From Candidatus Saccharimonadota bacterium (GTDB lineage: Bacteria; Patescibacteriota; Saccharimonadia; Saccharimonadales; Saccharimonadaceae): a stretch of DNA of 40,759 nt. The notes under the pieces are model-generated. The model was not told the DNA's origin. It did not search any database and saw only the letters and a program-made list of their open reading frames with translations. The stretch covers positions 1-40,759 of the forward strand of contig JAFWLO010000007.1 of NCBI GenBank assembly GCA_017545595.1, read 5' to 3'. The translations under genes and the position numbers were made by a program. This document shows, in pieces, positions 16,800 to 40,219 of the stretch; positions within the stretch are counted from its first letter, which is position 1, and the number at the start of each line of letters is the position of its first letter.

Positions 16800-16823
16800 T
16801 TCATCTATAAGTTTTGAGCTTCA

Positions 16824-18472: not shown

Positions 18473-18480
18473 CCTTTCGT

Positions 18481-18503
18481 CCCCCTCCGGGGGGATTTTT
18501 TTT
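18481..18503 (+). terminator. hsp20 terminator
   Basis: CCCCC/GGGGG stem with a short loop, followed by A and eight T residues. The 130 bases after it hold no gene that I can see. Confidence 0.85.
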
Positions 18504-18633
18504 AGGTGTCTTAGTATTCCTCATACTGCAACATTCCTCGTACTACAACATTCTGCGGTCCATCAGCATTCTCATTATCCTACGCCCCGCGCCACGCCAC
18601 GTCTCGCGCCTCACCTCTGCTATCTTTACCAAC

Positions 18634-18660
18634 AAAAATCCACCCCAAAAGGGGTGGATT
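18634..18660 (-). terminator. Terminator of the VirB2-like gene cluster
   Basis: Stem ATCCACCCC/GGGGTGGAT with loop TTTT on the minus strand, followed by TTTTTGTT, just after the stop of the 130-residue gene. Confidence 0.8.
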
Positions 18661-18684
18661 CGCAGTAACTAAGGATACCCCTAG

Positions 18685-19077: not shown

Positions 19078-19107
19078 CTAAATTTTCCTTTCTGTTAAAT
19101 TATCTCC

Positions 19108-19136
19108 ATAATACCAGAAATAACCATAACTGTAAA
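19108..19136 (-). promoter_or_regulatory. Promoter of VirB2-like gene 2
   Basis: TTTACA-N17-TATTAT on the minus strand with TGG upstream of the -10; leader of about 25 nt containing the ribosome-binding site. Confidence 0.65.
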
Positions 19137-19177
19137 GGATTTTCGATTTTTTTTATTACTAAATTCCCGCTAGCCTT

Positions 19178-19609
19178 CTACTTCAATTTCGTCAAAACAA
19201 AATTCACAATCGCATATGCCAAAATAGCAATAGCAAGCCCAACAATCGCATAAATCAACGTATTCTTAGCTTTCGCAACCGCGCCAGGATTTCCTGCGCT
19301 CGCCGTCAACTGTATCCCCGAAACAATAATCATAACAACAGAAACCGCCCCAACTACCCAAAGAAGGACTTGAACGACGGTTTTAACTAGCCCTTTCGCA
19401 TCTTTATCATTCGAACACCCCGCCGCGGCTTTAAGATCAGCGTCAATCTCGCTATTACTACATATTTCGTCGCTACTACTCCCGCTCGCCCCCGGCGCAG
19501 CAAACGCAACCTCAGGAGACAACATAACTCCCCCAATAATTCCTAAAATCAATGCCAACCCCGCCCCAAACCTTACTATTCCTCCACAGCATCTACGCAA
19601 ATTGCTCAT
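19178..19609 (-). CDS. VirB2/TrbC-like small membrane protein 3
   Basis: From the ATG at 19609 (143 residues; a GTG three codons upstream is less likely). It has a signal peptide with hydrophobic core LALILGIIGGVMLSPEVAFA, a Ser/Cys-containing spacer (two Cys around 50-70), and the family core VVMIIVSGIQLTASAGNPGAVAKAKNTLIYAIVGLAIAILAYAIVNFVL. The GGAGAG ribosome-binding site lies in the end of the upstream gene, only 5 bases separating stop and start, so translation is coupled. Confidence 0.85.
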   Translation of the reverse strand: MSNLRRCCGGIVRFGAGLALILGIIGGVMLSPEVAFAAPGASGSSSDEICSNSEIDADLKAAAGCSNDKDAKGLVKTVVQVLLWVVGAVSVVMIIVSGIQLTASAGNPGAVAKAKNTLIYAIVGLAIAILAYAIVNFVLTKLK

Positions 19610-19614
19610 CACTC

Positions 19615-19884
19615 TCACTCTCCAATCTTCGTCAACACAAAATTAACAATCACAAACGCAAGCACGCTAATAATAAGCCCGACAATCGAGAAAATCATAG
19701 TATTTTTCGCCTTTGTCACGGCTCCCGGGTCCCCCGCACTCGCACTCATCCTAAGCCCTGACACAATTATCATCACAACCGCAACCGCTCCGACCGCAAA
19801 AAACAGCCAAGAAATCGCATTCGTCTGGAACGTCGCCGCGTCATTCTTAGGAATTTTATCTAACTGTTTACTAACAGCATCCAT
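19615..19884 (-). CDS. VirB2/TrbC-like small membrane protein 4, no signal peptide
   Basis: At 89 residues this is the shortest paralogue. It begins MDAVSKQLDKIPKNDAATF without a cleavable signal and goes straight into the core AVVMIIVSGLRMSASAGDPGAVTKAKNTMIFSIVGLIISVLAFVIVNFVL. A GGAGGAGGAGC ribosome-binding site lies within the end of the upstream gene. Absence of a signal peptide suggests it stays in the membrane unprocessed. Confidence 0.85.
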   Translation of the reverse strand: MDAVSKQLDKIPKNDAATFQTNAISWLFFAVGAVAVVMIIVSGLRMSASAGDPGAVTKAKNTMIFSIVGLIISVLAFVIVNFVLTKIGE

Positions 19885-19885
19885 T

Positions 19886-20332
19886 TTATGCTCCTCCTCC
19901 GCTCGACATCATGCCGAGAATAGTATTAACAATAACTTGCGCAAGCACGACAATTATAAGTCCAACAATCGTCCCCGTCAGCATCTTTGTCGCTCTCGCC
20001 GCCTTCCCAGAATCCCCCGCCGAAGTTATATAGTTAAACCCCGCATAAACAATAAGGATAACCGCCAAAAATCCCGAGAGAAAGAATAAGTCGTTCAGAA
20101 CAGTCAAAACAATCTTCCAAACCGCCGGAACGAGTTTATCTCCCGAGAACTGAGTCTGATCAATATCCTTCTCGCTCGAACAGTCAAGATAATAATACCA
20201 ACTCTTCATCCCAAACAACTTCGCCTTATCCCCGTTAAGCGACCCGCAAGATTGCGCATACGTCTGGACAGGGAAAAGCGCCCCGAGCATAATCAAGAGT
20301 CCCCCAAGAATACAAAAAATCTTCCTTCTCAT
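19886..20332 (-). CDS. VirB2/TrbC-like small membrane protein 5
   Basis: From the ATG at 20332 it has 148 residues: signal peptide MRRKIFCILGGLLIMLGALF...TYAQS, a spacer of about 60 residues with two Cys (CGSLNG and LDCSSE) and aromatic WYYYLD, then the core AVILIVYAGFNYITSAGDSGKAARATKMLTGTIVGLIIVVLAQVIVNTIL. A longer reading beginning MWYNFC would be translation of the extended -10 box itself. It heads the operon of proteins 5, 4 and 3, with the leaderless promoter 6 bases upstream. The divergent core makes it the most distant paralogue. Confidence 0.85.
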   Translation of the reverse strand: MRRKIFCILGGLLIMLGALFPVQTYAQSCGSLNGDKAKLFGMKSWYYYLDCSSEKDIDQTQFSGDKLVPAVWKIVLTVLNDLFFLSGFLAVILIVYAGFNYITSAGDSGKAARATKMLTGTIVGLIIVVLAQVIVNTILGMMSSGGGA

Positions 20333-20338
20333 ACAAAA

Positions 20339-20347
20339 ATTATACCA
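20339..20347 (-). promoter_or_regulatory. Extended -10 box for a leaderless mRNA (VirB2-like operon)
   Basis: TGG-TATAAT on the minus strand ends 6 bases before the ATG at 20332. It is back to back with the promoter of the small ORF at 20369. Confidence 0.75.
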
Positions 20348-20353
20348 CACCTA

Positions 20354-23957: not shown

Positions 23958-24899
23958 ATGGCGCAATATAAGGTCCCTCAAGATGTAGAGGCCGACGACA
24001 AACTCATTGGCCCTTTTAACTTCCGCCAATTCATCTATCTCCTCGTCGTGGCCGCTCTAATCGCTCTCGCGTGGGCGCTAGCCCAAATTTTTCCCCTGCT
24101 TGCTATTTTTCCAGTCCCGCCTGCACTCTTTCTTCTTGCCCTCGCCCTCCCTCTGAGAAAAGACCAACCTATGGAAACTTATCTCGCTGCCCTCATAAAA
24201 TTCTACACAACCCCTAACAAACGTTTCTGGAACCCTGGCCAGCGTGAATCAACCATCACCATAACCGCCCCTAAGGTCGTCGAACAAGTCCTAACAAAAA
24301 ACCTCTCCGAGGAAGAAGCCGGTCGTCGCCTCTCCTTCCTTGCGAACATCGTCGACACCGAAGGCTACTCCATCAAGGGCGACCTTTCCGCCGCCCCTTC
24401 TTCCTCCCCAATTCGCGGAGAAATCCTCGCCGAGGCGAACAACGCGACCGACATCTTCGACACTTACGAGTCCACAAAGGTCGGAACTTCTCTAGAGAAC
24501 GAAGCTTCCCGCCACCGTGCCCAGCTCGTCGCCGGTATGCGCGCCGCCCTTAAAGGTCAGGAAACCGCCTCCGCCCCCTCCTCTCCGAGCATCTCCCACT
24601 CTTTCTCCTCCTCCGTTTCCTCTTTGAACACTTCTAAAACTCAAGCTTCGAACAACCCTTCCTTCGAAATCCCCCAAACTCCAAGCTCTGAAGCTTCTCA
24701 AAAAATCGATTATTCTGACATTATTGTCAATCCCGCCGCCCTTGCCGCCCCCGCTCAGCCTTCAACCCCTCCCGCCGTAAATCCCGACCTCATCTCCCTC
24801 GCAAAAAGCGACGACTTGACCGTTGCGACCCTCGCCAAACAAGCCAACAAAAAGTCCAAATCCTCCGACGACGGGGAAGTATATATTAGTTTACATTAA
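23958..24899 (+). CDS. PrgI family protein, VirB3-like T4SS component
   Basis: The first 100 residues are the PrgI domain (Pfam PF12666): YKVPQDVEADDKLIGPFNFRQF, two adjacent membrane helices (about 28-70, IYLLVVAALIALAWALAQIF and LLALALPLR), then a segment with FYTTPNKRFWNPG. PrgI is the Gram-positive and Patescibacteria counterpart of VirB3 and works with VirB4 at the membrane. The remaining 200 residues are a Ser/Pro/Ala-rich, probably disordered cytoplasmic tail with a short structured patch (SEEEAGRRLSFLANIVDTEG). Its stop lies inside the ribosome-binding region of the next gene. Confidence 0.88.
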   Translation: MAQYKVPQDVEADDKLIGPFNFRQFIYLLVVAALIALAWALAQIFPLLAIFPVPPALFLLALALPLRKDQPMETYLAALIKFYTTPNKRFWNPGQRESTITITAPKVVEQVLTKNLSEEEAGRRLSFLANIVDTEGYSIKGDLSAAPSSSPIRGEILAEANNATDIFDTYESTKVGTSLENEASRHRAQLVAGMRAALKGQETASAPSSPSISHSFSSSVSSLNTSKTQASNNPSFEIPQTPSSEASQKIDYSDIIVNPAALAAPAQPSTPPAVNPDLISLAKSDDLTVATLAKQANKKSKSSDDGEVYISLH

Positions 24900-25731: not shown

Positions 25732-27564
25732 ATGGCCAAGAAAAAACAACTTTCCGCTTCCCAAATCGCCGCCCAGTCCCAAATGAACGAGGACATGGCC
25801 ATCCAACGCGCCTTCGAACAGGGAATCACAACCCTTCGCGACCTCATCTCTCCTTCTTCTATAGAAATCCACGCCGACCATTTCCGCCTCGGCACAAAAT
25901 ACGGCCGCACTATCTATATCTACGGCTATCCCCGCACCCTCTTCACAGGTTGGCTCTCCCCCATCATCAACATCGACGAAGTTCTCGACATCTCCATGTA
26001 CATTTACCCCGTTGATACTCAAGTCGTCATGAAAAACCTCAGAAAAAAGGTTACCCAGCTCGAAGCTTCCATGAACGTCAACGCCGAACGTGGAAAAGTC
26101 CGTGATCCTGAGCTTGAAGCCGCCATCAACGACGCCGAAGAACTCCGCGACCAACTTCAAGTCGGCGCAGAAAAATTCTTCCGCTTCGGCCTCTATGTTA
26201 CGCTCTGGGCCGACTCCCTCGACGAACTCAAATTCGTCCAACAAAAGGTCGAAACCATCTTTGGCCAACTCATGGTCTTCTCAAAAGTTGCCACTTCTCA
26301 ACAAGAACAAGGTATGCAATCCTGCCTTCCTCAATGTTCCGACCAACTCCAAATCCGCCGCAACATGAACACCGGCGCAATCTCAACCTCCTTCCCGTTC
26401 ACCTCAGCCGACCTCACCCAAGAACAGGGAATCCTCTATGGCGTAAATATGCACAACAACGGCCTCGTCATCTTCGACCGCTTCTCCCTCGAAAACGCCA
26501 ACATGGTTGTCTTCGCTAAATCCGGCGCCGGAAAATCCTTTACTGTCAAACTCGAAGCTCTCCGCTCCATGATGCTCGGAAGCGAAATCGTCATTATCGA
26601 CCCCGAGAACGAATATCAAAAACTCTGCGACGCCGTCGGCGGCTCCTATGTTCGCCTCAGCCTTAACTCCGATGTCCGCATCAATCCTTTCGACCTCCCT
26701 AAAGTCGTCGATTCCGAAGACGCAAACGACGCCCTCCGCGCCAATCTCGTCACCCTCCACGGCCTCTTCCGTCTCATGCTCGGTGGCTCCGCAACTGGCC
26801 CAGGCGGCTCCCTAGTCTCTGGTCTAACCGCCGTCGAAGAAGCCGACCTCGACCAAGCCCTTATCGACACATACGCCCGCGCCGGAATCACCTCCGACCC
26901 TCTCACTCACCAATCCACCCCTCCGACCATCATCAACCTCTACGACACCCTCCTCCATATGGAAGGGAGCGGCCCCGCCCTTGCCCAACGCCTCAAAAAA
27001 TATACGACCGGAACCTTCGCTGGCATCTTCTCTCAGCAATCCAACGTCGACATCAACAATCCTATGGTCGTTTTCAACATCCGCGACCTCGAAGACGAAC
27101 TCCGCCCCGTTGCCATGTATATCGTCCTCTCCCACATCTGGAATATTGTCCGCGCCGAACAAAAACGTCGCCTCCTCATCGTTGACGAAGCCTGGCAGCT
27201 CATGCAATTCGAAGATTCCGCGAACTTCCTCTTCTCCCTCGCTAAGCGCGCCAGAAAATACTACCTCGGTTTAACAACCATCACCCAAGACGTCGACGAC
27301 TTTATGGGAACAAAAATGGGTCGCGCCATTGTCGCAAACTCCTCCATGCAACTCCTCCTCAAACAATCCGCCTCTGCCGTTGACGTCCTCTCCGATGTCT
27401 TCAAATTGACCGAAGAAGAAAAGAAACGCCTCGCCAACTTCCCAGTCGGCCAAGGTCTCTTTTTCGCCGGCTCAAACCACGTCCATATCCAAATCATCGC
27501 TTCAGAAACTGAAGAGTCCCTCATAACAACCAACCCCACCGCCCACAACAACCCTTCCTTGTAA
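25732..27564 (+). CDS. virB4: VirB4 family type IV secretion ATPase
   Basis: The 610-residue ATPase has an N-terminal region (about 40-190) of the VirB4/CagE type, then the motor domain: Walker A FAKSGAGKSF (261-270), VIIDPENEYQKL, the Walker B strand RRLLIVDEAWQLM (479-491), and a final TQDVDDFMG...VANSSMQLLLKQS pattern. It energises assembly or transport of a type IV machine at the inner membrane. It is the strongest marker of the locus. An AAAGGA ribosome-binding site sits in the end of the preceding gene. Confidence 0.95.
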   Translation: MAKKKQLSASQIAAQSQMNEDMAIQRAFEQGITTLRDLISPSSIEIHADHFRLGTKYGRTIYIYGYPRTLFTGWLSPIINIDEVLDISMYIYPVDTQVVMKNLRKKVTQLEASMNVNAERGKVRDPELEAAINDAEELRDQLQVGAEKFFRFGLYVTLWADSLDELKFVQQKVETIFGQLMVFSKVATSQQEQGMQSCLPQCSDQLQIRRNMNTGAISTSFPFTSADLTQEQGILYGVNMHNNGLVIFDRFSLENANMVVFAKSGAGKSFTVKLEALRSMMLGSEIVIIDPENEYQKLCDAVGGSYVRLSLNSDVRINPFDLPKVVDSEDANDALRANLVTLHGLFRLMLGGSATGPGGSLVSGLTAVEEADLDQALIDTYARAGITSDPLTHQSTPPTIINLYDTLLHMEGSGPALAQRLKKYTTGTFAGIFSQQSNVDINNPMVVFNIRDLEDELRPVAMYIVLSHIWNIVRAEQKRRLLIVDEAWQLMQFEDSANFLFSLAKRARKYYLGLTTITQDVDDFMGTKMGRAIVANSSMQLLLKQSASAVDVLSDVFKLTEEEKKRLANFPVGQGLFFAGSNHVHIQIIASETEESLITTNPTAHNNPSL

Positions 27565-27593: not shown

Positions 27594-28991
27594 ATGAACC
27601 TAAAGTCCCGCCTCTCTATTTTCTTTTTGTTCTCTCTAGCCCTCTTCGGCCTCTCCTCAAACTGCCTCGCTCTCTCCGCCTCCGAGCTCCGTTTTTATGG
27701 TCAAAACAACATTCTGTTCTACGCTCCAGAAGAAGACAACTGTCTAGAAAGCTCCTCCAGCTCCGCCACCTCTAGTTCTTCCGCCTCTACCTCTTCCGCC
27801 GAAGGCGCTCACAACCTCTCCGCCGAACAAGTCCAATTCGTAGAAAAATACCACGACGCCGCCGTCCTCCACAGCATCAACTACGGTATCCCTTGGGAAA
27901 CCGTCGTCGCTCAAGGCATTCTCGAATCCGCCTCTGGCTCCTCCCAAATCGCCCGAGAGAAGAACAACTTTTTCGGCGTTGGGGCTTTTGATTCCTGTCC
28001 CTACGAATGTGCAAAATCCTACTCAACCCCCGAAGAAGGCTGGGAAGGTTACTATAAAAACATCGTCCAAACCTCCGTCTATCGAGAAAACGGAGTCTTT
28101 TCTGGCGACACTATAACCGACCCTATCGCCTACCTCCGCGCCATTAAAGCCGCTGGCTACGCCACCGATCCTTCCTATGTAGAAAACACCACCCCTCTAA
28201 TAAACTCCATCATCGCCATCTCTAAAGATCGTGGCTGGGAATCCTCCGCCGAACTCGCAGAAAAACATCCCGAGTGGAAACAAAACGCCGAGAAAAACCG
28301 CCAGGGCGCCTCTACCTCTTCCTCCAACTCCTCCTCTGGAACTTCAAATGCTTCTTCTTCAGTCAAACTCTGCACCCCAGGCTCAAAATCCTCAAGTCCA
28401 AAATCCTCCTCCTCTAAATCTTCCACGGAGGGAACTACTGCTTCTTCCGAACTCATCTCCGGCGGCATGACCCTCTCCGAAGCTGAGGCTTTTATGGAAA
28501 CCTACGCCTCCGAGTCTGATAAGTTCGCAACCGGGAACCTCTCCTTTTCTGGAGCAACCGTTCTCGACGCTGGCTGCCCGAGTGGAACCCTAAACAACTG
28601 CTCCGCCTTCACGCAATGGTTCCTCAACAAATACACTTCTCTCGGCCCCTCCGGCGCTAATCTCGTCCAAGGTTCTCAAGCCGTCCAACAATACACCGCG
28701 ACCGGCCAACTCACCTACGGCGGAAAAACTCCAAAGCCCTACGCCGTCGTCAGCATGGGTCCCTATTCTGGAACCGCCGACGGCTGGCCAAACCACACTG
28801 CTATTGTCCTCGGAATCGACTCCTCCTCCGACCAAATTATCATCGGCGAAGCCAGCTGTGGCTCCGGAAACGGTGGTCGCTACTATCGCCCTCAAGCAAA
28901 AGTTTATAGCCTCTCCGAATACACTAACAGCTCCAGCGAATACGGCCCAACCTACGCCTACACCGATTCCGTCTTGAAAGGTCTAAAATAA
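27594..28991 (+). CDS. Secreted glucosaminidase with C-terminal CHAP-like domain
   Basis: This 465-residue protein has a signal peptide (residues 1-27, ending CLALS), the motif RFYGQNNILFY (33-43), a Ser-rich linker, and a glucosaminidase domain of the FlgJ/LytG type (about 78-212) with catalytic Glu in QGILESASGSSQ (Glu111) and NNFFGVGAF. A long Ser/Lys linker leads to a C-terminal Cys-His hydrolase-like domain: LNNCSAFTQWF (Cys336) and NHTAIVLGI (His401) with Glu419, the CHAP/NlpC arrangement. It would cut both glycan and peptide bonds of murein, the job of VirB1-type proteins of type IV systems. The target could be its own wall or a host's. Confidence 0.88.
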   Translation: MNLKSRLSIFFLFSLALFGLSSNCLALSASELRFYGQNNILFYAPEEDNCLESSSSSATSSSSASTSSAEGAHNLSAEQVQFVEKYHDAAVLHSINYGIPWETVVAQGILESASGSSQIAREKNNFFGVGAFDSCPYECAKSYSTPEEGWEGYYKNIVQTSVYRENGVFSGDTITDPIAYLRAIKAAGYATDPSYVENTTPLINSIIAISKDRGWESSAELAEKHPEWKQNAEKNRQGASTSSSNSSSGTSNASSSVKLCTPGSKSSSPKSSSSKSSTEGTTASSELISGGMTLSEAEAFMETYASESDKFATGNLSFSGATVLDAGCPSGTLNNCSAFTQWFLNKYTSLGPSGANLVQGSQAVQQYTATGQLTYGGKTPKPYAVVSMGPYSGTADGWPNHTAIVLGIDSSSDQIIIGEASCGSGNGGRYYRPQAKVYSLSEYTNSSSEYGPTYAYTDSVLKGLK

Positions 28992-29901: not shown

Positions 29902-32832
29902 ATGAAAGGTCATTTCTCCCCGAAATCTTCTATCTTTTTTGTCATCGGCTTTTTTATTCTCTTTTTCTGTTTCAAGTCCGCCAGATCCGCCTCCGCCGCG
30001 ACCTCACTGACCGAAGAACAACGTCGCTTTTACGCTCTAAACAACATCTTCGCCATCGGCGACTGCACCCCTGGCGCCAGTTTCCAAATCTCCGGAACTC
30101 CAGTCTCCGGCTCCGTCTTCCAAGCCACCCCATATTCCGACCTCACCGAAGGACAACTCCGAGGCATCATGGCCGCCGTTAAGGAAGAAAACGCCGGAAA
30201 TTTAAACGCTATCCGTTACCAAGCTTCCATTATGGCGAATCTAGTCGAACGCGACCACCCCGACTGGGCAGGAAAGGGCGATAAACTTATCGAATATGCC
30301 TCGACGACTTGGTTCGCTGCGAACACTAAAGCCACTATCACTAACCAAGAATTCTCCGACTACACCGCCGAAGAAATGCAAGCCGTCGTCGAAGTTCTTA
30401 AAGAAGGGAAGCGCGCTCTCCCGACTTACATCGACGAGCACGACCAAGTAGAAGATCTCGCCTCCGTCAAAATAAACGGAGAAGACAAAGATAAAAACAC
30501 CATATCTAGCTACGTTAAAGACCAAACCACCATAAATAATATATACGAGTCGACCTACACCTTCTATGATTGGGCAAACCCAAACGGGACAGTCATCAGT
30601 AGCTCTTCGGAGGGGAACGGAACGGGCGATGTTTATGGCTACACCGGTAGCGCCGGAAGTCCGAGCTCTTCTAGTTCCTCCTCTAGCCCCTCCTCGTCAG
30701 AAGCCACAGGAACAGAAACCTCCGCCGTCTCTGACACCCCTTCCGAATCCTCGTCCGCCCAAACTGGAACCGAAGAAACCTCCGCTGTCGAAGGAAACTC
30801 TTCTGGAGGCTCATCTCTCGGGACTTCCGGGACAATAAACACCACTTCTTCCGGCTCCGCCGTAAATTACAAGGGCGACAAAGTCCTCGAAGATTCCGAC
30901 ATCGCAAAAATCAAAGAGCTCCAACCTCTCTACGAAGAAGCCGTAAAAGGAACGAACGTCCCTTGGCAAGTCCTCGCAACTATCCACTATCGCGAGCACA
31001 GCCTCAGCAAAGAAAACGCTTCAAACGGCCAAGGTATCTTCCAGCTCTATGACCATTATATCGCCGGAGAAACCTTCCCAACTTCCGGCGAAGCCTCCGA
31101 CGAAGAGTTCATTCGCCAAGCTAAAATGGCCGCCGAAGATTTCGCAAAAGCCATCCCGGACAAATACAACATCAACAGTGCCGAAGGCATAAAATTCGGC
31201 TTCTTTGCCTATAACGGACAAGCCGACGCCTACAAGGCTCAAGCCTTAGCTCTCGGCTTTTCTCAAGACGGCGCAGACATCGGCGAAGGCTCTCCTTACG
31301 TCATGAATCGCTACGATGCCCAACGCGACCCGACTGCCGGAGCCGACAAATGGGGTCAAATAAAATCCGACGGTGGCGGAATCGAATATCCCGCAAACAA
31401 TGATTTTGGCGCCTTTGTAGTTTACACCGCCCTAACCGGAGGAGCCTGGTCCTCGACCGGCGGAACGACAAACGCCATCGACGCCTGCGATTCCGCATCC
31501 CTCGTCGACGGAAACAGCACCGGCGGAAACGGTGGCGAACTTATCGCCGCAAAAGCCCGCGAGCTCGCCTGGTCCGACACAAGCCACTACAACGAAGTCA
31601 ATCCTTCCTTCCTAGCTGCCGCCAAAGCCCTCGGAGAGGGAACGAGAAACTACTGCGGTGGCGATGCCGAACTCGACTTCGCTCAAGATTGCGGTATCTT
31701 CGTCTCGACCGTCGTTCGCTCAACCGGCATCGATCCTGACTTCCCAAAAAGCTACACCCCCGACCTCGAACACCACATGTCAAATTCTAGCCTCTGGACA
31801 GAAATAGAAAACACTGGAAGCGAAGATAATCTCCTCCCTGGAGACATCTTCGTCGTAAACGCCGGTAGCCATGGCTACGGTTCAAAAGAATACCCTGACG
31901 GAGGCGGAGGCGGCGCCGGTCACATCTTCATCTATCTCGGAGGAGAAGACAAAACCGCAAGTGCTTCGCTCTGCGGTCGCTCCGGAAACCTCAAAGAAGA
32001 CGTCCAATTCTCAAGCTCCGGAACCCAATATCGCATTTTCCGCTCAACCGTCCAATCCGGAATCTCCGGTGGCTCCGTCGGAAGCTTCGACGAAGAACTG
32101 AAAGCCCTCGAAAAAGACGGAAGAAAAGTCGGCGCTGCCGTCGCCGCTCCCGGAACAAAAGATGTTTCCCAGGTTCAAGTTGGTGGCTCCTGGCTTACAG
32201 GTCGTGCCTGGTCCACTATAAAAGTCCCACTCTCCATCGCCGCTACTCAGAAAAACGCCTCAACCGGCTCCGTAACCGATCCATACGGAGAAACCTGCTC
32301 TCACGATCTCAGTTCCGCAATCAACGTTGCCATTACCCAGTCCAACAACTGCGGAGCTTGGTGGCTCTGGACCGCCCTCGGCGGCGACAATTCCTCCGCT
32401 GCTGATTCCGTCACTTCCGTAATAAAATCCGGCGGAGACTCCGGAACAACCGTCGTCAGTTCAGGTGACGGAAAAAGTCTAACTTCCGGAAAAACCGAAT
32501 GGTCTCTCGCTGGCCAAGCTATCTTTGCCGCGAACATGGCTTCCATCTCTGGCGCCTCCTCCGTCATGTCAGAAATGAAAGTCCACAACGCGAGCGACGG
32601 CTCCTACGGCCTCAACATCTACGATTCCGCCATGACCAAAGGCGGCTGGGGTTCAGACGACGGTGGAGCGACTCGTCAGTTCGGAATCGTAAAAGTCTCA
32701 GACGGAAAATGTATGGCCGTCGCCATCGGAACAAACGGAAACGCCCAATTTTCCACCCTCACCGCTATTGTCAGTGTGCTAAATAATCATGCGGACAGCC
32801 TCCCAACTGGAAGTTGCCCCTCAGGGTTCTAA
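29902..32832 (+). CDS. Four-module secreted murein enzyme: N-terminal module, SLT-like, NlpC/P60-like, serine beta-lactamase-like
   Basis: The 976 residues read as follows. Signal segment 10-33; motif RFYALNNIFAIGDC (42-55). Module A (about 75-245) is unassigned, with LTEGQLRGIMAAVKEENAGN. A Ser/Thr/Glu linker spans 250-325. Module B (about 333-520) resembles lytic transglycosylases: VPWQVLATIHYREHSLSKEN with GQGIFQLYD. Module C (about 545-715) resembles NlpC/P60 or CHAP amidases: QDCGIFVSTVV (Cys597), LLPGDIFVV, GHIFIYLGG (His674). Module D (about 728-965) resembles class A beta-lactamase/penicillin-binding folds: S771-T-I-K774, S814-N-N816 and K913-G-G. Domains B-D would cut or remodel peptidoglycan. 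The last module could be a carboxypeptidase, a beta-lactamase or an inactive binder. Confidence 0.8.
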   Translation: MKGHFSPKSSIFFVIGFFILFFCFKSARSASAATSLTEEQRRFYALNNIFAIGDCTPGASFQISGTPVSGSVFQATPYSDLTEGQLRGIMAAVKEENAGNLNAIRYQASIMANLVERDHPDWAGKGDKLIEYASTTWFAANTKATITNQEFSDYTAEEMQAVVEVLKEGKRALPTYIDEHDQVEDLASVKINGEDKDKNTISSYVKDQTTINNIYESTYTFYDWANPNGTVISSSSEGNGTGDVYGYTGSAGSPSSSSSSSSPSSSEATGTETSAVSDTPSESSSAQTGTEETSAVEGNSSGGSSLGTSGTINTTSSGSAVNYKGDKVLEDSDIAKIKELQPLYEEAVKGTNVPWQVLATIHYREHSLSKENASNGQGIFQLYDHYIAGETFPTSGEASDEEFIRQAKMAAEDFAKAIPDKYNINSAEGIKFGFFAYNGQADAYKAQALALGFSQDGADIGEGSPYVMNRYDAQRDPTAGADKWGQIKSDGGGIEYPANNDFGAFVVYTALTGGAWSSTGGTTNAIDACDSASLVDGNSTGGNGGELIAAKARELAWSDTSHYNEVNPSFLAAAKALGEGTRNYCGGDAELDFAQDCGIFVSTVVRSTGIDPDFPKSYTPDLEHHMSNSSLWTEIENTGSEDNLLPGDIFVVNAGSHGYGSKEYPDGGGGGAGHIFIYLGGEDKTASASLCGRSGNLKEDVQFSSSGTQYRIFRSTVQSGISGGSVGSFDEELKALEKDGRKVGAAVAAPGTKDVSQVQVGGSWLTGRAWSTIKVPLSIAATQKNASTGSVTDPYGETCSHDLSSAINVAITQSNNCGAWWLWTALGGDNSSAADSVTSVIKSGGDSGTTVVSSGDGKSLTSGKTEWSLAGQAIFAANMASISGASSVMSEMKVHNASDGSYGLNIYDSAMTKGGWGSDDGGATRQFGIVKVSDGKCMAVAIGTNGNAQFSTLTAIVSVLNNHADSLPTGSCPSGF

Positions 32833-32833
32833 A

Positions 32834-33514
32834 ATGCAAGAAAACAACTTTCTCTCAAACATTTTCCAGTCCTCTCCAAGCGAACAAGACGGCTCTCTTA
32901 AGCCTAAAAACATCTTCCTCCTCGTCCTGGTTTCCATCGGAATTTTCTCTATCATTCTTCTCGTTATCCTTCTCACCTTCCTCTCCCGCTTCCGCTACTC
33001 GACTCTAAACCTGACTTTCTCCCCCCTCTCCGCCGTCGCAACAATCGACGGAACTCAAGTCTCCTCCGGCGCTGTCCATATCTCCCCAGGAACCCACCAA
33101 ATAACCATAGAAAAGTTCGGCTTCGAAACAAAAACCGAAACTTTCACCCTCTCCGCCGGACAATCCCGCGACTTCTCCGTCATGCTCTCCCCCTCAGAAG
33201 ATTTCACAAAATCCTGGTATTCCTTCCATCCCGAAGATGGAAAAATCAGCGAACAAATCGGTGACAAATCCGCCGACGACTTCACTGCTAGCTTAGAAAA
33301 AACCTATCCCTTCGCCTCTAAACTTCCCATAAAAACCGCCAACTTCCAAATCTACCGCTCTTCATGCAACGGGGAAGTATGCTTCACCATTTCCGCCTCC
33401 TCCGAACACCTCGACGAGGCTCTCAACTATTTCAAATCTCGCCTTTATTCCGATCTCGGAAGCCTCAACATCGTTTTTAAAGATTATCACAATCCATTCA
33501 AGGGGGAGGGCTAA
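32834..33514 (+). CDS. Membrane-anchored PEGA-domain protein 1
   Basis: I start at the ATG at 32834 (226 residues), two bases after the previous stop; an upstream in-frame ATG would overlap the hydrolase gene. One membrane helix (about 26-50) follows a short cytoplasmic part. A PEGA domain follows (about 53-120: LSAVATIDGTQVSSGAVHIS then PGTHQITIEKFGF), and then a C-terminal domain with NFQIYRSSCNGEVCFTISAS, helix LDEALNYFKSRL and strand LNIVFKDY. PEGA domains are surface beta-modules often found with envelope proteins. It is in line with the following two genes. Confidence 0.82.
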   Translation: MQENNFLSNIFQSSPSEQDGSLKPKNIFLLVLVSIGIFSIILLVILLTFLSRFRYSTLNLTFSPLSAVATIDGTQVSSGAVHISPGTHQITIEKFGFETKTETFTLSAGQSRDFSVMLSPSEDFTKSWYSFHPEDGKISEQIGDKSADDFTASLEKTYPFASKLPIKTANFQIYRSSCNGEVCFTISASSEHLDEALNYFKSRLYSDLGSLNIVFKDYHNPFKGEG

Positions 33515-33904
33515 ATGCAAACTCTAAAACAAAACAAAAAACTTCTAATCGTCGGCATCATCTCAATAGTTATTATCCTAATCATCTGTCTTTTTAGCCC
33601 CTTCGGAACTTCCGACACAAGTTTATGCCTAAAACTCAAACTCGCTTCAGAAAAATCATCCCTCGAGGAGTCCTTAAAAGGGAATTACTCCTTCCTTCCC
33701 AGTCTAGAAATTAAAAAGCTCCTCATCATAAAAAACAACAAATATCTCGGCGCCACTTTTTCCTACGAAGGCGCAACCTATCGCGCTCTGCTAGTTAGAA
33801 AAAACGACTCTTGGATTGTTCATTCCACTCCCTCTCTTATTCTCGCTTATTCCGATTTCCCCGACGTCCCTAAGGAAGTTATAAAAACAATTAACAATAT
33901 GTAG
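33515..33904 (+). CDS. Small membrane-anchored protein, hypothetical
   Basis: The 129-residue protein has one membrane helix (about 10-27, LLIVGIISIVIILIICLF) and a small extracytoplasmic domain with YSFLPSLEIKKLLIIKNNK and YRALLVRKNDSWIVHSTP strands. I recognise no family. The ATG directly follows the stop of the PEGA gene, with a GGGGGAGGG purine stretch as ribosome-binding site in the end of that gene. Confidence 0.72.
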   Translation: MQTLKQNKKLLIVGIISIVIILIICLFSPFGTSDTSLCLKLKLASEKSSLEESLKGNYSFLPSLEIKKLLIIKNNKYLGATFSYEGATYRALLVRKNDSWIVHSTPSLILAYSDFPDVPKEVIKTINNM

Positions 33905-33912
33905 GTTTAACT

Positions 33913-34554
33913 ATGTCATTTCTCAAAAAACACCCAATCCTCTCAACAATAATTTTCGTCCTCGTCGCCTCCATTCTAATTTCCGCCATCATCATCTTCG
34001 TCGACTCTAGTCGTGACAGGACCGCAACCGTTTATATCTCCGTCGCCCCTCAAGGTGCAGAAATCTCTTTCTCCGGAGAAGAAACTCTAACCAACAATTC
34101 TACAAACCGCCTAAACCCCGGAACCTACACGATTTCCGCCTCCCTCCCTGGTTACGAAACAGAGTCGAGAACTTTCACCCTCGACCCAAACGGCTCCGAA
34201 AGTATCATTCTCCCCCTCCTTCCAACAAACAACGATTTCTCCGCCTACGAAAAAAATTTCGACGACCTCTACGATCTCCGTTTTTACTCCTCAAAAAACC
34301 CCGACAACTCCGCCGTCTCTAAGTTCCTCATGGGTTACGACAAAAAAGCCACAATAGAATCCGTCCTCCCTCTATATCGCTACGAGCCAGTGGACTATTA
34401 TTATGTCTTCTTTAAAACCAACGAAGATGCCTGCGAACGCCTCTTCTGCCTAGAAATCGGCGCCCACACCGATTCTGCCTATTCCGCCGCCCTCCGCGAC
34501 ATCGCCTCTCACGGCTACAATCCTTCCGATTACGAAATCGTCCGCTCCCGCTAA
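33913..34554 (+). CDS. Membrane-anchored PEGA-domain protein 2
   Basis: The 213-residue protein has one membrane helix (about 10-30), a PEGA domain (about 36-104: YISVAPQGAEISFSG then LNPGTYTISASLPGYETES), and a C-terminal domain with VDYYYVFFKTNEDACERLFC, helix AYSAALRDIASHG and strand DYEIVRSR, the same order as the proteins at 32834 and 28991. Cys pairs occur before the final helix in both PEGA proteins. Its stop is only three bases from the stop of convergent recF, with no room for a terminator. Confidence 0.82.
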   Translation: MSFLKKHPILSTIIFVLVASILISAIIIFVDSSRDRTATVYISVAPQGAEISFSGEETLTNNSTNRLNPGTYTISASLPGYETESRTFTLDPNGSESIILPLLPTNNDFSAYEKNFDDLYDLRFYSSKNPDNSAVSKFLMGYDKKATIESVLPLYRYEPVDYYYVFFKTNEDACERLFCLEIGAHTDSAYSAALRDIASHGYNPSDYEIVRSR

Positions 34555-34557: not shown

Positions 34558-35568
34558 TTATTCAATATCTTCAACCGCCCCCACGCTCGTAATAATCACC
34601 TGATTCTTTTTAAAGTTCCGAACGAGCGCTTTTTGTCGCGTCTCGTCTAGCTCAGAAAACACATCATCAAGTAACACTACCGGGCTTTTTCCGAGAACTT
34701 CTTTCACCATCTCCGCCTCGATAAATTTCAGTGCAATAACAATCGACCGAACTTCTCCTCGACTCGCCGACCCGTCCGCCTCTGTTTTATTAAACAAAAA
34801 CTTATAATTATCCCTATGCACCCCAAAACTCGTATGCCCCACGATCGAATCTCTCTCAAACCTTCCTTCAAGCTCCCTAAAATACCCATTTTCATCCACC
34901 TCCGCATCTTTCTCGAGCCTAATCAAGATTTCATCCTCATTATCTGCAATCGAACGATAAATATCTGTAAGCTTCTTATTAATGTTTTCCACAAGTTCAA
35001 CCCGACTTTTCCACAAGTCCACCCCCAATCTACTCAAAAGCACATTCCAAGAAAACAACTCTTCCTTCTTTAAAAACTCTTTTTTAAGAAGCTCATTTCG
35101 TTGTTTTAATGCTTTATTATATTTAGACAGGGAACTACTATACCTATCGCTCAGTTGCGCAAAAAACCTATCGAAATAATCGCGCTTCCTACTCGGGCTC
35201 GCCCCGACAATGTTTAAATCATCCGGTTCGAACAACACAATCGGATATTTATATTTTTTTGGCAACCTCGCCGTCTTTTTTTCTCCTGCAAAAAATGTCT
35301 TTTTTCCACTCTCTGCCTCATAAGTTACAACAACTTTTTCTCCGTCAACGTATTCAAGTTCTACTCGATAAAATTCCGCTCCTCTCCGAATAATCTCCCG
35401 ATCGACCGCCCTAAAACTTTTCCCCCTCGTTGTCTCAACAATCGCTTCTAAAATCGAAGTTTTCCCACTTCCATTTTCTCCAGAAATCATCGTCGTTTCT
35501 TTCCAACACGACAACAAAAACTCCTCATGACATCTAAAGTTATTTAATTTTACAGATTTTATAATCAT
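34558..35568 (-). CDS. recF: DNA replication/repair protein RecF
   Basis: The 336-residue SMC-like ATPase has the N-terminal INNFRCHEEF-type start (VKLNNFRCHEEFLL), Walker A MISGENGSGKTSILEAI, the RecF helix RDYFDRFFAQLSDRYSSSLSKY, the signature ASRGEVRSIVIALK, and Walker B SPVVLLDDVFSELD. It loads RecA at single-strand gaps together with RecO/RecR. Start overlaps the dnaN stop by one base. It is slightly shorter than usual (about 360). Confidence 0.95.
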   Translation of the reverse strand: MIIKSVKLNNFRCHEEFLLSCWKETTMISGENGSGKTSILEAIVETTRGKSFRAVDREIIRRGAEFYRVELEYVDGEKVVVTYEAESGKKTFFAGEKKTARLPKKYKYPIVLFEPDDLNIVGASPSRKRDYFDRFFAQLSDRYSSSLSKYNKALKQRNELLKKEFLKKEELFSWNVLLSRLGVDLWKSRVELVENINKKLTDIYRSIADNEDEILIRLEKDAEVDENGYFRELEGRFERDSIVGHTSFGVHRDNYKFLFNKTEADGSASRGEVRSIVIALKFIEAEMVKEVLGKSPVVLLDDVFSELDETRQKALVRNFKKNQVIITSVGAVEDIE

Positions 35569-36674
35569 TACGATTTGAGTGGCATTATTATATGTGTATA
35601 TTTATCACTTTTCTCATTTTTTACAATAATCGGCGCCAACTTTCCGGAAAATCCCAATTTAACCTTTTCTTCATCAAGCACATTTAGCGCATCCATTAAA
35701 AACCTCGAATTAAGCGTAACCCTCTCGTCTTTCGGAATATCCGTTTCTATCTCTGAGTCGTTTTCTCCATACTCATTCGCAACCGACCCAACAGAAAACG
35801 TTCCTGTCGCTGTTTTCGCCTCTAGAACTATCGACCCTCCGACCTCTCTTGCAAATAACGCCGCAAGTTTCGTAACTCTTATAAGTTCTTTCTTCTCCAC
35901 AACAATCTCCGCCTCGCTTTCTTTCGGAATCAGCTGACGATAATCCGGGAAACTCCCTTCAATCAACTTCGAAGTTATTTCTATCTCACCAATCCTGAAA
36001 ATAACTTGCGCCTCATCAAACAAAATCTCAACCTCCTCCGCTTCTTCACTCATCGACCTCATCACTTCCGCAAGGGAACTAGTAGGCACAATCGCTTTTA
36101 TCTCACTCTCGACTTTCTCAATAAACTTTCTCTCTGCAAGTCTATATCCGTCCGTCGAAGCGATATAAAGTGCCCCCTCATCCGTATTAAAATACACCCC
36201 CGTAAGTGCCGGTCTAGTTAAATCATTTGAACTCGCAACAATAACTTGATTTACTCCGACCTTAAACTCATCCACCCCCATCCTAAATCTCACCGCTTTA
36301 TCCTCATCAATCTCCGGAAGCTCAGGAAAATCATCTGCCGGCGTCCCATTAAACGTCGACTTATACCCCTTCGACTTCACCGCAATTTTCGTTCCGTCAA
36401 CAGAAATATTAACTATATTCCCCTTAGGAAGGTTAGAAACAAACTCCGCTATAAGTTTCGCTGGAACAGTAATGACTCCATTTTCGCTTTTACTAACTGG
36501 CAAATAGACAACAACTGCCATATTCAAATTTGTTGTGGTTAAACTAACTTTTCCTTCATCCGCCCTAATTAAAACATTACTAAGTATCGGAAGTCCAGAT
36601 TTGCTTCCTCCTGCAACTCTACTTACTATATTTAATGCCTTAGATAGTTTCCCAGAATCAACTTCAAGCTCCAT
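35568..36674 (-). CDS. dnaN: DNA polymerase III beta subunit (sliding clamp)
   Basis: The 368-residue protein has normal clamp length and three repeated domains. Recognisable stretches are LSKALNIVSRVAGGSKSGLPILSNVLI, VPAKLIAEFVSNLPKGNIVNI, SNDLTRPALTGVYFN, YRLAERKF, FPDYRQLIPKE and the C-terminal LAPIIVKNEKSDKYTHIIMPLK. It tethers polymerase III to DNA. An AAAGGAGA ribosome-binding site precedes the ATG. Confidence 0.97.
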   Translation of the reverse strand: MELEVDSGKLSKALNIVSRVAGGSKSGLPILSNVLIRADEGKVSLTTTNLNMAVVVYLPVSKSENGVITVPAKLIAEFVSNLPKGNIVNISVDGTKIAVKSKGYKSTFNGTPADDFPELPEIDEDKAVRFRMGVDEFKVGVNQVIVASSNDLTRPALTGVYFNTDEGALYIASTDGYRLAERKFIEKVESEIKAIVPTSSLAEVMRSMSEEAEEVEILFDEAQVIFRIGEIEITSKLIEGSFPDYRQLIPKESEAEIVVEKKELIRVTKLAALFAREVGGSIVLEAKTATGTFSVGSVANEYGENDSEIETDIPKDERVTLNSRFLMDALNVLDEEKVKLGFSGKLAPIIVKNEKSDKYTHIIMPLKS

Positions 36675-36984
36675 TTTGTCTCCTTTCTTTTAAAAACTTC
36701 CTTTAATAAATATATATTTAGTAATCATAGTAGTATGGTATGTGGAAAAAATGAATAACTCGGAAAACTTAACTATTCGCCCCAAATAACTTTTCCCACA
36801 CGCATTTAAAACTTTTTCGCAAAAACCGAACAAGTTCCCACAAAACCGAACACTTTCCCACAAAACCGAACAAACCGAACACGCCGATTTTTTGTTCTCC
36901 ACAGCCTTATGAACAAAAAATCCCGCCCCTCTCCACAGCATTTTCCACAAACTTTTCCACAAAACGCTCATTTTTACTCGATTT
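36675..36984. other. dnaA-dnaN intergenic region with repeats and DnaA-box-like sites; possible second part of the origin
   Basis: These 310 bases hold no convincing gene. They contain TTTTCCACA at 36941-36949 and 36953-36961, its complement at 36741-36749, a TTTTCCCACA at 36791-36800, and the ACCGAACA repeat array described separately. In many bacteria the region between dnaA and dnaN is part of oriC. Confidence 0.6.
36821..36881. repeat. Iteron-like ACCGAACA array
   Basis: ACCGAACA occurs at 36825, 36845, 36865 and 36874. The first three are spaced exactly 20 bases apart in units of the form CAAAACCGAACA(A/C)(G/T)TTCCCA; the fourth is 9 bases on. The helical phasing suggests a protein-binding array. 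Confidence 0.75.
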
Positions 36985-38382
36985 TTACGCATAAATAGCT
37001 TCCTTTATTTGCTCGACCTGATCCCTCAGCTGTAAATTCGTTTTCTGATCCGTTTCAATCTTTCTTATCCCATTCATAACTGTCGTATGGTCCTTCACGC
37101 CAACTTCTGGCGCGATTTTTGTCGTGGACATCCCTAGTTCCTTGGAAAGAAGATACATCGCAACCTGTCTCGCGGTTTTTATATGTGCCACCCTACTTTT
37201 CCCAGTCATCTCGACCACCGTCAGATTATAATATTTAGCAACCTTCTCGACGACCTGCCTCGACGTTACTGCGCGCGTTCTTCGGACGACCGAACCCGAA
37301 ACATACCCTTCATTTATAAGCTCTAAAGGCGTCATGCCTTTGATTTCTGCCGTGAGCATAATTTTTTGGAACTCACCTTCAAGCTCGCGCACATTTGTTT
37401 TGACGTTTTCCGCGATAAATTCAATCGCCGCATCTTCAATTTCTTGTCCGAGATATTCCGCCTTTGCCTTAAGAATAGCGCATCTATCCTCAAACCCAGG
37501 AAAAGAAATGTCGTACGCCCCCGCACTCTCTAATCTCGAACTTAATCGAACGTCGAGAGTCTTTATTTCCTTAGGCAATCTATCGCAGGTTATTATTATC
37601 TGTTTATTTGCTTGATGTAAGTCATTAAATATATTAAAAAACTCTTCCTGACTCCTATCTTTTCCAATAATCATCTGAAAATCATCAATAATAAGAACGT
37701 CAAGTTTTTGATATTTCCTTACAAACGCATCTGGTTTATTTGCTTTAATCGAGTTAATAAATTCCGAATAAAAATGATTCATCGTCGCATAAAGGACTTT
37801 ATAATCAGGATATTTTTCCACGATAGCATTTCCGATTCCCTGAACAAGGTGGGTTTTCCCAAGCCCAGGCCCACCATAGAGAAAGAATGGGTTGTTTTTC
37901 TTCCCAGGTTCTGCAACTATCAACTTAGCAACCCCGGCTGCAAGTTCATTACTACTCCCAACAACGAAGTTATCCAGTGTATATTTAGAATTAAGCCCCG
38001 TCGAAGCTGTCCTTGCGCTATCTCTAACTCTCCCTAGTCCATTTACATAATCTCCAACCGAATTGACTCTCCCGCCCCCGCCGAGTTTTATACCATCCTC
38101 GCTCGTCACTTCTCTTGCGCGAACTCGTGTACCTCTATTAGAGGATTTAACGGTAAAATCTATCTGTTTCAACTCAATTCCATTATTTTTAAACGCTTCC
38201 ATGAGCATTGTTCGATATTTTGAGTCGAGCTGTTTGGAAATAAACACGTTTGGCGTCCCAATAGTGGCGACACCTTCTTTTTTGTCAAGCGAGATAAGTC
38301 TAATGTCTTTGAACCAAATATGATTAGCATCAGAAACTTTGCTCTGAACCTCCGCTAAAACATTTTGGAACACATCAAACAT
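36985..38382 (-). CDS. dnaA: Chromosomal replication initiator DnaA
   Basis: The 465-residue initiator has the N-terminal helical domain, a Gly/Arg-rich linker, and the AAA+ core with Walker A YGGPGLGKTHLVQGIGN and Walker B LDVLIIDDFQMI. FPGFEDRCAILKAKA follows as sensor region, then the DNA-binding domain IV with ARQVAMYLLSKELGMSTTKI and signature VGVKDHTTVMNGIRKIE. In the last motif the usual GRDH is VKDH, so one arginine is replaced by lysine. AAAGGAGGT lies about 14 bases before the ATG with an AGGGG nearer. A TATAAT at 38416-38421 and a DnaA-box-like site at 38438 suggest autoregulation. Confidence 0.97.
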   Translation of the reverse strand: MFDVFQNVLAEVQSKVSDANHIWFKDIRLISLDKKEGVATIGTPNVFISKQLDSKYRTMLMEAFKNNGIELKQIDFTVKSSNRGTRVRAREVTSEDGIKLGGGGRVNSVGDYVNGLGRVRDSARTASTGLNSKYTLDNFVVGSSNELAAGVAKLIVAEPGKKNNPFFLYGGPGLGKTHLVQGIGNAIVEKYPDYKVLYATMNHFYSEFINSIKANKPDAFVRKYQKLDVLIIDDFQMIIGKDRSQEEFFNIFNDLHQANKQIIITCDRLPKEIKTLDVRLSSRLESAGAYDISFPGFEDRCAILKAKAEYLGQEIEDAAIEFIAENVKTNVRELEGEFQKIMLTAEIKGMTPLELINEGYVSGSVVRRTRAVTSRQVVEKVAKYYNLTVVEMTGKSRVAHIKTARQVAMYLLSKELGMSTTKIAPEVGVKDHTTVMNGIRKIETDQKTNLQLRDQVEQIKEAIYA

Positions 38383-38623
38383 TATCCCCTTATGACCTCC
38401 TTTATAACTTATCTAATTATATCCCAGTTAAGAAAAGTTTTCCACAACTTTATAACCTAAAATTTCATATTTTATAATATGCTAAAAATTAACAGGGAAG
38501 GAGTTTTCCACTGTTTCGATTTTACCCCGTTGTAATTGTGGAAAACTCCTTGATTATGGTGGAAAACTTTGATATAATAAAACAAATATTTGCAAATAAT
38601 TAAACTATATAGGATTCTATTTT
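38383..38623. other. Probable replication origin (oriC) between dnaA and rpmH
   Basis: Four DnaA-box-like sites (TTTTCCACA and one-base variants) lie at 38438-38446 and 38504-38512 on the plus strand, and at 38537-38545 and 38558-38566 on the minus strand. A perfect 14-bp inverted repeat (AAGGAGTTTTCCAC, 38499-38512 and 38538-38551) makes the central pair symmetrical. An AT-rich stretch at about 38450-38492 could be the unwinding element. The sites differ from TTATCCACA by A to T at position 3, apparently the local consensus. Confidence 0.75.
38550..38578 (+). promoter_or_regulatory. rpmH promoter with an embedded DnaA-box-like site
   Basis: TTGATT-N17-TATAAT. The box at 38558-38566 lies in the spacer, so DnaA binding could repress rpmH transcription. 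Confidence 0.7.
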
Positions 38624-38761
38624 ATGCCCAAACGAACTTATCAGCCCCACAAGCGACAGCGCAAAGCTGAACACGGTTTCATGAAGAGAAACTCCAACCA
38701 TACCGGCCGTCTCGTCCTTAAACGTCGCCGCCTAAAAGGTCGCAAACGCCTCACTGCCTAG
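38624..38761 (+). CDS. rpmH: 50S ribosomal protein L34
   Basis: The frame encodes a 45-residue protein beginning [20 protein letters not shown] and ending [11 protein letters not shown], the size and basic composition of L34. A weak TAGGA site lies before the ATG. Its position next to rnpA and dnaA is the classic bacterial origin arrangement. Confidence 0.97.
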
Positions 38762-38774
38762 TCTTACGCCCATC

Positions 38775-38797
38775 TAAATACCCCGAAAGGGGTATTT
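38775..38797 (+). terminator. rpmH terminator/attenuator hairpin
   Basis: A stem AAATACCCC/GGGGTATTT with loop GAAA, immediately before the rnpA -10 box. It has no long T-run, so it may only be partial. Confidence 0.6.
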
Positions 38798-38798
38798 A

Positions 38799-38807
38799 TG
38801 GTATAAT
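38799..38807 (+). promoter_or_regulatory. Extended -10 box before rnpA
   Basis: TGG-TATAAT ends 11 bases before the ATG at 38819, leaving at most a leader of a few bases and no ribosome-binding site. Confidence 0.65.
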
Positions 38808-38818
38808 GTATTCATCTT

Positions 38819-39160
38819 ATGTTGACAAAAACTTACCGATTTCACTCCCGAGGAGGCGTTAAGCACGCCTATCGCGCCGGAAAGACCATTCGTCGCCCTG
38901 ATCTTAGTCTGGTTTTCTGCGACAATCCTAAGGGCTTCACGCGCTTTGCTGTTGTTGTCTCTAAAAAGGTTCTCCGTTCTGCCGTCGGTAGAAACCGCAT
39001 TCGTCGCCGCGTTTACGAAGCTATCCGTCTCAACCTCTCCGAGTTTAAACAACCTCGAGATTATGTTTTTGTCATTTATAGCCAAAGAATAAAATCCCTT
39101 CCGTTCTCCGAACTAGAAAAAGAAATCAGGGAACTATCAAAAGAAAGTATGCTACAATAA
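38819..39160 (+). CDS. rnpA: Ribonuclease P protein component
   Basis: The 113-residue basic protein shows the RnpA pattern: FHSRGGVKHAYRAGK, LSLVFCDNPKGFTRFAVVVSKKV and the RNR motif SAVGRNRIRRRVYEAIR. It binds the RNase P RNA and helps 5' processing of tRNAs. The RNA subunit gene is not in the window. Confidence 0.96.
   Translation: MLTKTYRFHSRGGVKHAYRAGKTIRRPDLSLVFCDNPKGFTRFAVVVSKKVLRSAVGRNRIRRRVYEAIRLNLSEFKQPRDYVFVIYSQRIKSLPFSELEKEIRELSKESMLQ
39150..39158 (+). promoter_or_regulatory. Extended -10 box for a leaderless mRNA (yidC), inside the rnpA end
   Basis: TGC-TACAAT ends 8 bases before the yidC ATG at 39167. It overlaps the last codons of rnpA. Confidence 0.6.
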
Positions 39161-39166
39161 TCTCAT

Positions 39167-40219
39167 ATGTTTAGACTAATCGATTTTCTTATTGTCCGCC
39201 CAATCTCGAACATCTTGTTTCTAATCTATAATTTTGTCGGCGACTTCGGGATTGCCATTATCCTCTTTGTCGTTCTGGTCAAAATCCTCATGTGGCCCCT
39301 TGTTAAAAAACAGCTCCATCAAACAAAGCTCATGAAAAAACTCCAGCCCGAGCTTGCTGAAATAAAAAAGAACTGCAACGGGAATCGCCAGCTCGAATCT
39401 CTTCAGACTATGGATCTTTACAAAAAATACAACGTAAAGCCTTTTGCCTCTCTTTTAACCGTCTTGATTCAGCTTCCGATCTTCATTGCTATTTTTAGCG
39501 CTATCCGCGTCATGGCTACTCCTCCGACCGTCGAGAAAAACCTCGACCTCCGTGCTTACTCTTTTGTAAAATCGTCAGATTCCCATGTTGGAGAAGTTGT
39601 CAATCTACAAAGCGCCTACCTAGAAGAAAAAACCGCCTACGACGAAAAACAATCCGATGAATCTCTTTCCTCTGAGGAAAAAGAAGCTCTTAAGGCTCCG
39701 GTTTATCAGTTTCATCCTAAGCTTTTCGGAAAGATAAATCTTGAGGTAAAACCAGGTTTTGGTTCAAAGTCTGCCATTATAATGCTCGCCTTCACGATTG
39801 GCGCCTCTATTATTCAATTTTTCATCGCCCAGCAGCAACGTCCTTCTGGAAAAAACAAAAAATCAAAAACTTTCCGTCAACTTATGAAAGAAGCCGGAGA
39901 AGGAAAAGAACTTGACCAAGCCGACATAAACGATATGTCTTCCGCCCAAATGGCCTATATGATGCCTTTTATGCTTCTATTCATCATGATAAACCTCCCA
40001 GGTGCCATCGTATTCTATTATTTCCTCTCCAACGTCATTACTCTCGTTCAGCAAAAAATCATTTTAGACAAAGCGGAAAAAGAAATGGAAATCTCCGCCG
40101 ACAAAGCTATTCTCAAAGAACTTAAACGCGCCGAAGAGGCGGAAATAATAGAAAACAAAAAAACAGGAACAAAAATAACTCGTATCTCCGCAAAAGACAT
40201 TAAAAAGAAAAGGAGATAA
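39167..40219 (+). CDS. yidC: YidC/Oxa1 membrane protein insertase
   Basis: The 350-residue protein is of the Gram-positive YidC type. It has membrane helices at about 10-45 (ILFLIYNFVGDFGIAIILFVVLVKILMWPL), the cytoplasmic hairpin KKQLHQTKLMKKLQPELAEIKK, then VLIQLPIFIAIFSAIRVM, an external insert of about 60 charged residues (YLEEKTAYDEKQSDESLSSE), further helices IIMLAFTIGASIIQFFIAQQ and MMPFMLLFIMINLPGAIVFYY, and a Lys-rich cytoplasmic tail. It inserts membrane proteins alone or with SecYEG. An extended -10 lies directly upstream. Confidence 0.95.
   Translation: MFRLIDFLIVRPISNILFLIYNFVGDFGIAIILFVVLVKILMWPLVKKQLHQTKLMKKLQPELAEIKKNCNGNRQLESLQTMDLYKKYNVKPFASLLTVLIQLPIFIAIFSAIRVMATPPTVEKNLDLRAYSFVKSSDSHVGEVVNLQSAYLEEKTAYDEKQSDESLSSEEKEALKAPVYQFHPKLFGKINLEVKPGFGSKSAIIMLAFTIGASIIQFFIAQQQRPSGKNKKSKTFRQLMKEAGEGKELDQADINDMSSAQMAYMMPFMLLFIMINLPGAIVFYYFLSNVITLVQQKIILDKAEKEMEISADKAILKELKRAEEAEIIENKKTGTKITRISAKDIKKKRR

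Follow-up and report, generated by a model that had tools for sequence, protein, structure and literature searches.

What might a secreted wall enzyme of a type IV secretion system (T4SS) do with a domain resembling a serine β-lactamase? The question is raised by a 40,759-nucleotide stretch (the window) from a Candidatus Saccharimonadota bacterium (contig JAFWLO010000007.1), in which a single open frame with an ATG start and no internal stops encodes a protein of 976 residues carrying such a domain at its C-terminus. The uninterrupted frame had been noted in an earlier, sequence-only reading and is kept in relatives. The protein is best read as a secreted VirB1-like murein enzyme of the Saccharibacterial T4SS (Table 1).

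Table 1. Features of the T4SS locus and of the multi-module protein in the window.
Feature	Position	Strand	Evidence or remark
Extended VirB6-like protein, 1123 aa	20528..23899	+	TrbL/VirB6 0.0024, below cut-off; precedes PrgI and VirB4
PrgI/VirB3-like protein	23958..24899	+	PF12666 3e-11
VirB4-type ATPase (T4SS)	25732..27564	+	TraG P-loop 2e-28
Second murein hydrolase (glucosaminidase), directly after virB4	27594..28991	+	PF01832 2.6e-21
VirB1-like multi-module murein enzyme	29902..32832	+	976 aa; frame and relatives
Signal peptide or N-terminal membrane segment, aa 1-33	29902..30000	+	Hydrophobic stretch, SASAA; model helix 9-28
Module A, aa 75-245, helical	30124..30636	+	Also in proteins of relatives G008, G338, G001, G022
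SLT/lysozyme-like module, aa 315-520 (likely SLT)	30844..31461	+	Candidate catalytic Glu365 = 30994-30996
NlpC/P60-like cysteine peptidase module, aa 544-716	31531..32049	+	Cys597 = 31690-31692; His674 = 31921-31923
Class A β-lactamase-fold module, aa 725-976	32074..32829	+	Pfam, PDB profile and fold searches
STIK (S771/K774) = Ser70/Lys73	32212..32223	+	HMM/family alignments
SNN (S814/N816) = Ser130/Asn132	32341..32349	+	HMM/family alignments
KGG (K913) = Lys234	32638..32646	+	HMM/family alignments
Three small membrane/PEGA-domain genes, downstream	32789..34554	+	Beside fusion gene in G008, G362, G269

The T4SS genes adjoining the frame support the earlier proposal of a multi-module secreted murein enzyme within a type IV-like locus. 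With the glucosaminidase gene that directly follows virB4, the wall enzymes encoded by the locus number at least two. The fusion gene is the third after virB4 in the window and in the related genome G269, and the second in G338. In G362 some 17 kb separate it from virB4, although both are on one contig, and the PEGA genes stay beside it even there. The neighbourhood relative to virB4 is known for these four copies, the contig of a further relative, G008, stopping at the fusion gene. An array of at least three VirB2-like T4SS pilins (PF18895) is spread over 16431-20350, with members on either strand and other genes in between. At 34558-40219 the T4SS locus adjoins dnaN, dnaA and a YidC-type insertase, likely the replication origin region, as it also does in G008 and G269.

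A simpler version of the protein is found in G020, where a 433-residue SLT-NlpC protein encoded directly after virB4 shares 38% identity with the central part of the window protein, and in G033, where one of 424 residues is encoded by the second gene after virB4. The window protein is thus such an SLT-NlpC core, extended at both ends by additional modules. The sequence-only reading had held that these activities normally reside on separate proteins. The G020 protein, with just these two modules, counters this, as does the fact that two-domain VirB1 proteins joining SLT and CHAP modules are established in monoderm T4SSs (PMC12102498, PMC12857230). TraG of pIP501 and PrgK of pCF10 are likewise secreted multi-module T4SS murein hydrolases, composed of SLT and CHAP-type modules, with a degenerate extra module in PrgK. 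In contrast to the window protein, whose cysteine module is NlpC/P60-like, they have neither a module of class A β-lactamase fold nor module A. Since monoderm VirB1 proteins were already known to join SLT and CHAP, what is new is the acyl-serine-fold module.

The cysteine module matched NlpC/P60 in one relative (P0006, E-value 1.4e-5) and MepS by profile (2.6e-5), and Cys597 and His674 are invariant in 31 sequences. While the Cys/His pair of the earlier reading therefore stands, its amidase label does not, NlpC/P60 fitting better than either amidase or CHAP; the module is of the CHAP or related cysteine peptidase type found in VirB1 proteins. In the lytic-transglycosylase-like module, Glu365, in an HxxE context, and Asn438 are invariant in 14 relatives and a YN motif is conserved, but Pfam detection of SLT (PF01464) was weak, with a match in one member only (E-value 0.0027) and none at E ≤ 10 in this genome, and the profile of the module gave only noise against the PDB. 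An SLT assignment of residues 315-520 would seem likely from these conserved positions. Module A, for which the earlier reading could offer no family, has a few residues conserved across relatives but matched no Pfam or PDB family, the weak PDB matches being noise. An assignment to SleB/Hydrolase_2 was rejected, with no match to PF07486 at E ≤ 10 in five genomes.

Searched as a single sequence, the window protein matched nothing in Pfam at E ≤ 1, and nothing of use in the PDB or NCBIfam; matches to cytochrome c6 and Cps2A were noise. The STIK (771-774), SNN (814-816) and KGG (913-915) motifs of the C-terminal module were confirmed, with spacings of 43 and 99 residues. Alone the trio is weak evidence, since loosely spaced versions in the same order also arise on shuffling, in about 5% of cases for the C-terminal module and about 20% for the full-length protein. 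That the motifs are real is argued by their retention in all but one of the five fusion proteins and in all six actinobacterial homologues (one with KSG), together with the match of profile and fold searches to class A β-lactamases. Pfam Beta-lactamase2 was detected in 5/5 members scanned singly, at best with an E-value of 7.4e-8, the window's own copy reaching only 0.068. Against the PDB, a profile of the five fusion modules found class A β-lactamases at 5e-6, and with the six actinobacterial homologues added the best match was 4ewf (E-value 3.4e-8 over 196 profile positions).

By VIA, the C-terminal module of the full-length AlphaFold model (AF2; mediocre overall, with a mean pLDDT of 54, but with blocks of residues 725-976 mostly at 63-86 except around 851-860 and 891-920) aligns to BEL-1 with a Z-score of 18.1 and an rmsd of 3.2 Å over 221 residues, and a Foldseek search ranked LRA-5 top at about 17% identity. 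A separate model of the module, although poorer there than the full-length one (mean pLDDT 55.5), still matched class A enzymes. STIK, SNN and KGG align with the class A motifs SxxK, SDN and KTG/KSG, KGG being a variant of KTG, and the HMM alignments place Ser771, Lys774, Ser814, Asn816 and Lys913 on Ser70, Lys73, Ser130, Asn132 and Lys234, which implies a shared active site, with the loop around Lys913 modelled at low confidence. The predicted structure and the profiles together settle the class A fold of the C-terminus with high confidence. The serine β-lactamase/PBP-like module read from the sequence is thus upheld; a predicted fold unlike either, which would have spoken against it, was not what the model and fold search returned.

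In class A β-lactamases Glu166 is the deacylating residue. No conserved acidic residue is present at or near this omega-loop position in any of the five fusions, where the stretches read VVSSGDGKS, VNSTKSGNT, VNGTRNGDY, VNGTGDGTS and VNGTGKSTGF. As three of the six actinobacterial homologues carry a Glu at or beside the position, the trait varies within the family. LRA-5, from soil DNA, has Val166 and confers control-level MICs, and addition of Glu166 and Gln69 raised kcat/Km up to 11,000-fold (PMC12777564). PBP-A, a cyanobacterial relative from Thermosynechococcus that also lacks Glu166, acts as both a D,D-carboxypeptidase and an endopeptidase and strongly prefers stem peptides that are amidated (PMC11189452). 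Neither is an effective β-lactamase (PMC12777564, PMC11189452). Both have the class A fold and SxxK, SxN and KxG-type motifs, as does the window module, to which their sequence identity is low; they are stand-alone proteins whereas it is fused. The window module is PBP-A-like in combining a class A fold and the acylation residues with the absence of Glu166; the orthologue in G008 is without the acylation residues. Because the module shares the lack of Glu166 with LRA-5 and PBP-A, an antibiotic-destroying role appears unlikely and a peptidoglycan substrate is favoured, by analogy in the form of a D,D-peptidase or stem-peptide-binding role. The anti-β-lactam function suggested earlier is accordingly not supported. 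A β-lactamase protecting the epibiont or its host would be consistent with the fold and the acylation motifs, and some class A-like proteins of CPR bacteria do have β-lactamase activity in vitro (PMC9145738), but all the fusion proteins lack a counterpart of Glu166, LRA-5 gives MICs at control level and the module is physically fused to murein hydrolase modules, so that such a role is very improbable.

To which bacteria the module is related was examined with the NlpC/P60 and C-terminal stretch, whose matches among 72,556 plasmids were confined to Actinomycetota: the C-terminal module matched seven Mycobacteriales records, and the NlpC/P60 module one Glutamicibacter protein annotated as a lytic transglycosylase. 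Among the homologues found for the C-terminal module, the plasmid-borne Mycobacteriales serine hydrolases (e.g. WP_343467071.1) are the closest, at 33-36% identity, and share the signatures AWSTIKVPLA, SDN, FGQT.W, KGGWG and RQFG. Unlike the window protein they are stand-alone, secreted-looking or lipoprotein-like, with no fusion to a murein hydrolase. On Rhodococcus plasmids these homologues are preceded by a hypothetical gene without clear family (L090:1836-2801; also L093 and L094). In a tree with long branches, uneven letter make-up among its rows and Actinomycetota taken from plasmid records and not chromosomes, the fusions form one clade (100/100) and group with the actinobacterial proteins (95/95), apart from the Saccharibacterial stand-alone Beta-lactamase2 proteins; at the base of the group sits a stand-alone protein that is divergent and has a very long branch. 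The stand-alone proteins belong to the same Pfam family and occur in most genomes of the genus, but are distant, the module profile giving E > 0.01 on the genus copies tested. They are about 310-340 residues long, with some match in 140 of 170 genus genomes. The C-terminal module was probably acquired from an actinobacterial gene, the direction of transfer being read from plasmid-only sampling. In G+C and GC3 it does not stand out from the remainder of the gene, which leaves a recent transfer without a trace in composition.

On balance, we lean towards a VirB1-like T4SS wall enzyme whose PBP-A-like C-terminal module, probably actinobacterial-derived, reacts with or grips stem peptides. The SLT-like module would open glycan strands where the secretion channel or pilus crosses the wall, either the cell's own or that of the host, and the NlpC/P60 module would open stem peptides at the same site. 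The C-terminal module, like PBP-A, may react with or grip stem peptides of the D-Ala-D-Ala type through Ser771, either trimming them by D,D-carboxypeptidase or endopeptidase activity or anchoring the enzyme to the wall. Were it derived from an actinobacterial gene, its natural substrate would be actinobacterial peptidoglycan. The processive wall-remodelling machine and the host-directed action proposed in the earlier reading are conjectural, although the actinobacterial affinity of the module makes the latter more plausible. Cultured Saccharibacteria grow on Actinobacteria (PMC12857230), and the T4SS is essential for epibiotic growth in Southlakia epibionticum, the one species tested, as summarised in the same paper. 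It is tempting, as a tentative extension, to suppose that an epibiont recruited a serine enzyme acting on peptidoglycan from the lineage of its actinobacterial host, that it fused this to the T4SS wall enzyme for recognition of the host or editing of its wall, and that in one species the module has become catalytically dead and wall-gripping. A T4SS wall enzyme with a module of actinobacterial affinity offers a tangible and testable candidate for recognition of the host wall, and bears on how epibiotic Saccharibacteria breach or grip the walls of their actinobacterial hosts.

The dead module is that of G008, whose full-length relative of 948 residues was found in a search of 60 related genomes in which many other matches were partial. 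Of 40 positions invariant in the other ten sequences nine are changed, and these include Ser70, Lys73, Ser130 and Lys234; the chance of all four catalytic positions falling among nine changes of forty is about 0.0014 (hypergeometric). The module keeps its reading frame, its four cysteines and 51% identity. That four residues were lost together indicates that the catalytic site is a genuine unit, and one open to loss. Since the module was kept after their loss, catalysis cannot be all that it does in G008, and at least in that species it may serve a non-catalytic purpose. The degenerate LytM domain of PrgK down-regulates muramidase activity (PMC11323569) and inactive VirB1 homologues have been proposed as adhesins (PMC12857230). 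Together with the G008 orthologue, these are consistent with the C-terminal module being a non-catalytic part that binds peptidoglycan in the manner of an adhesin or regulates the protein itself, an explanation that deserves some weight but seems the less probable, as every acylation residue, unneeded for pure binding, is retained in the other four fusions and all six actinobacterial homologues. The intact, window-type version and the dead one form a natural pair for comparison.

The module is rare. It is present in four of 393 genomes of the class, the window's own included, and in five of 174 genomes of the genus, representing five species of one genus, and is therefore regarded as accessory. 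A scan of 84,980 species, with strict peptide patterns that distant copies may have escaped, led back to those four other species, which are all Saccharibacteria; three of them come from gut sources (goat jejunum, roe deer rumen and sheep ileum). No relative was found in the viral contigs and phages searched. Looking for the fusion in other Saccharibacteria, as the sequence-only reading had suggested, thus gave four further species, among which the N-terminal modules differ. The NlpC/P60 and C-terminal modules are together in all five proteins while the N-terminal part is swapped: module A and an SLT-like module in the window and G008; SGNH-like, phage-lysozyme-like and A modules in G338; phage-lysozyme-like and SLT-like modules in G269, where the N-terminus resembles by eye the SGNH-like part of G338; and Amidase_2 in G362. 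Such extreme shuffling, and the distance of the G362 gene from virB4, might suggest a secreted bacteriolytic effector directed at competing or host bacteria. This is nevertheless unlikely in place of a T4SS assembly factor, given that three of the four copies of known neighbourhood lie two to three genes after virB4 and that the NlpC/P60, and partly the SLT, core is common to them and to the minimal two-module VirB1-like protein. Multi-module architectures are also seen in proteins of two other relatives. In G003 (L043:8078-11251) one SLT-like module is followed by three tandem NlpC/P60-like modules in a single protein, and in G024 (L044:7864-11286) a glucosaminidase, two NlpC/P60-like modules, an Amidase_2 and a C39-like peptidase share one frame of 1141 residues.
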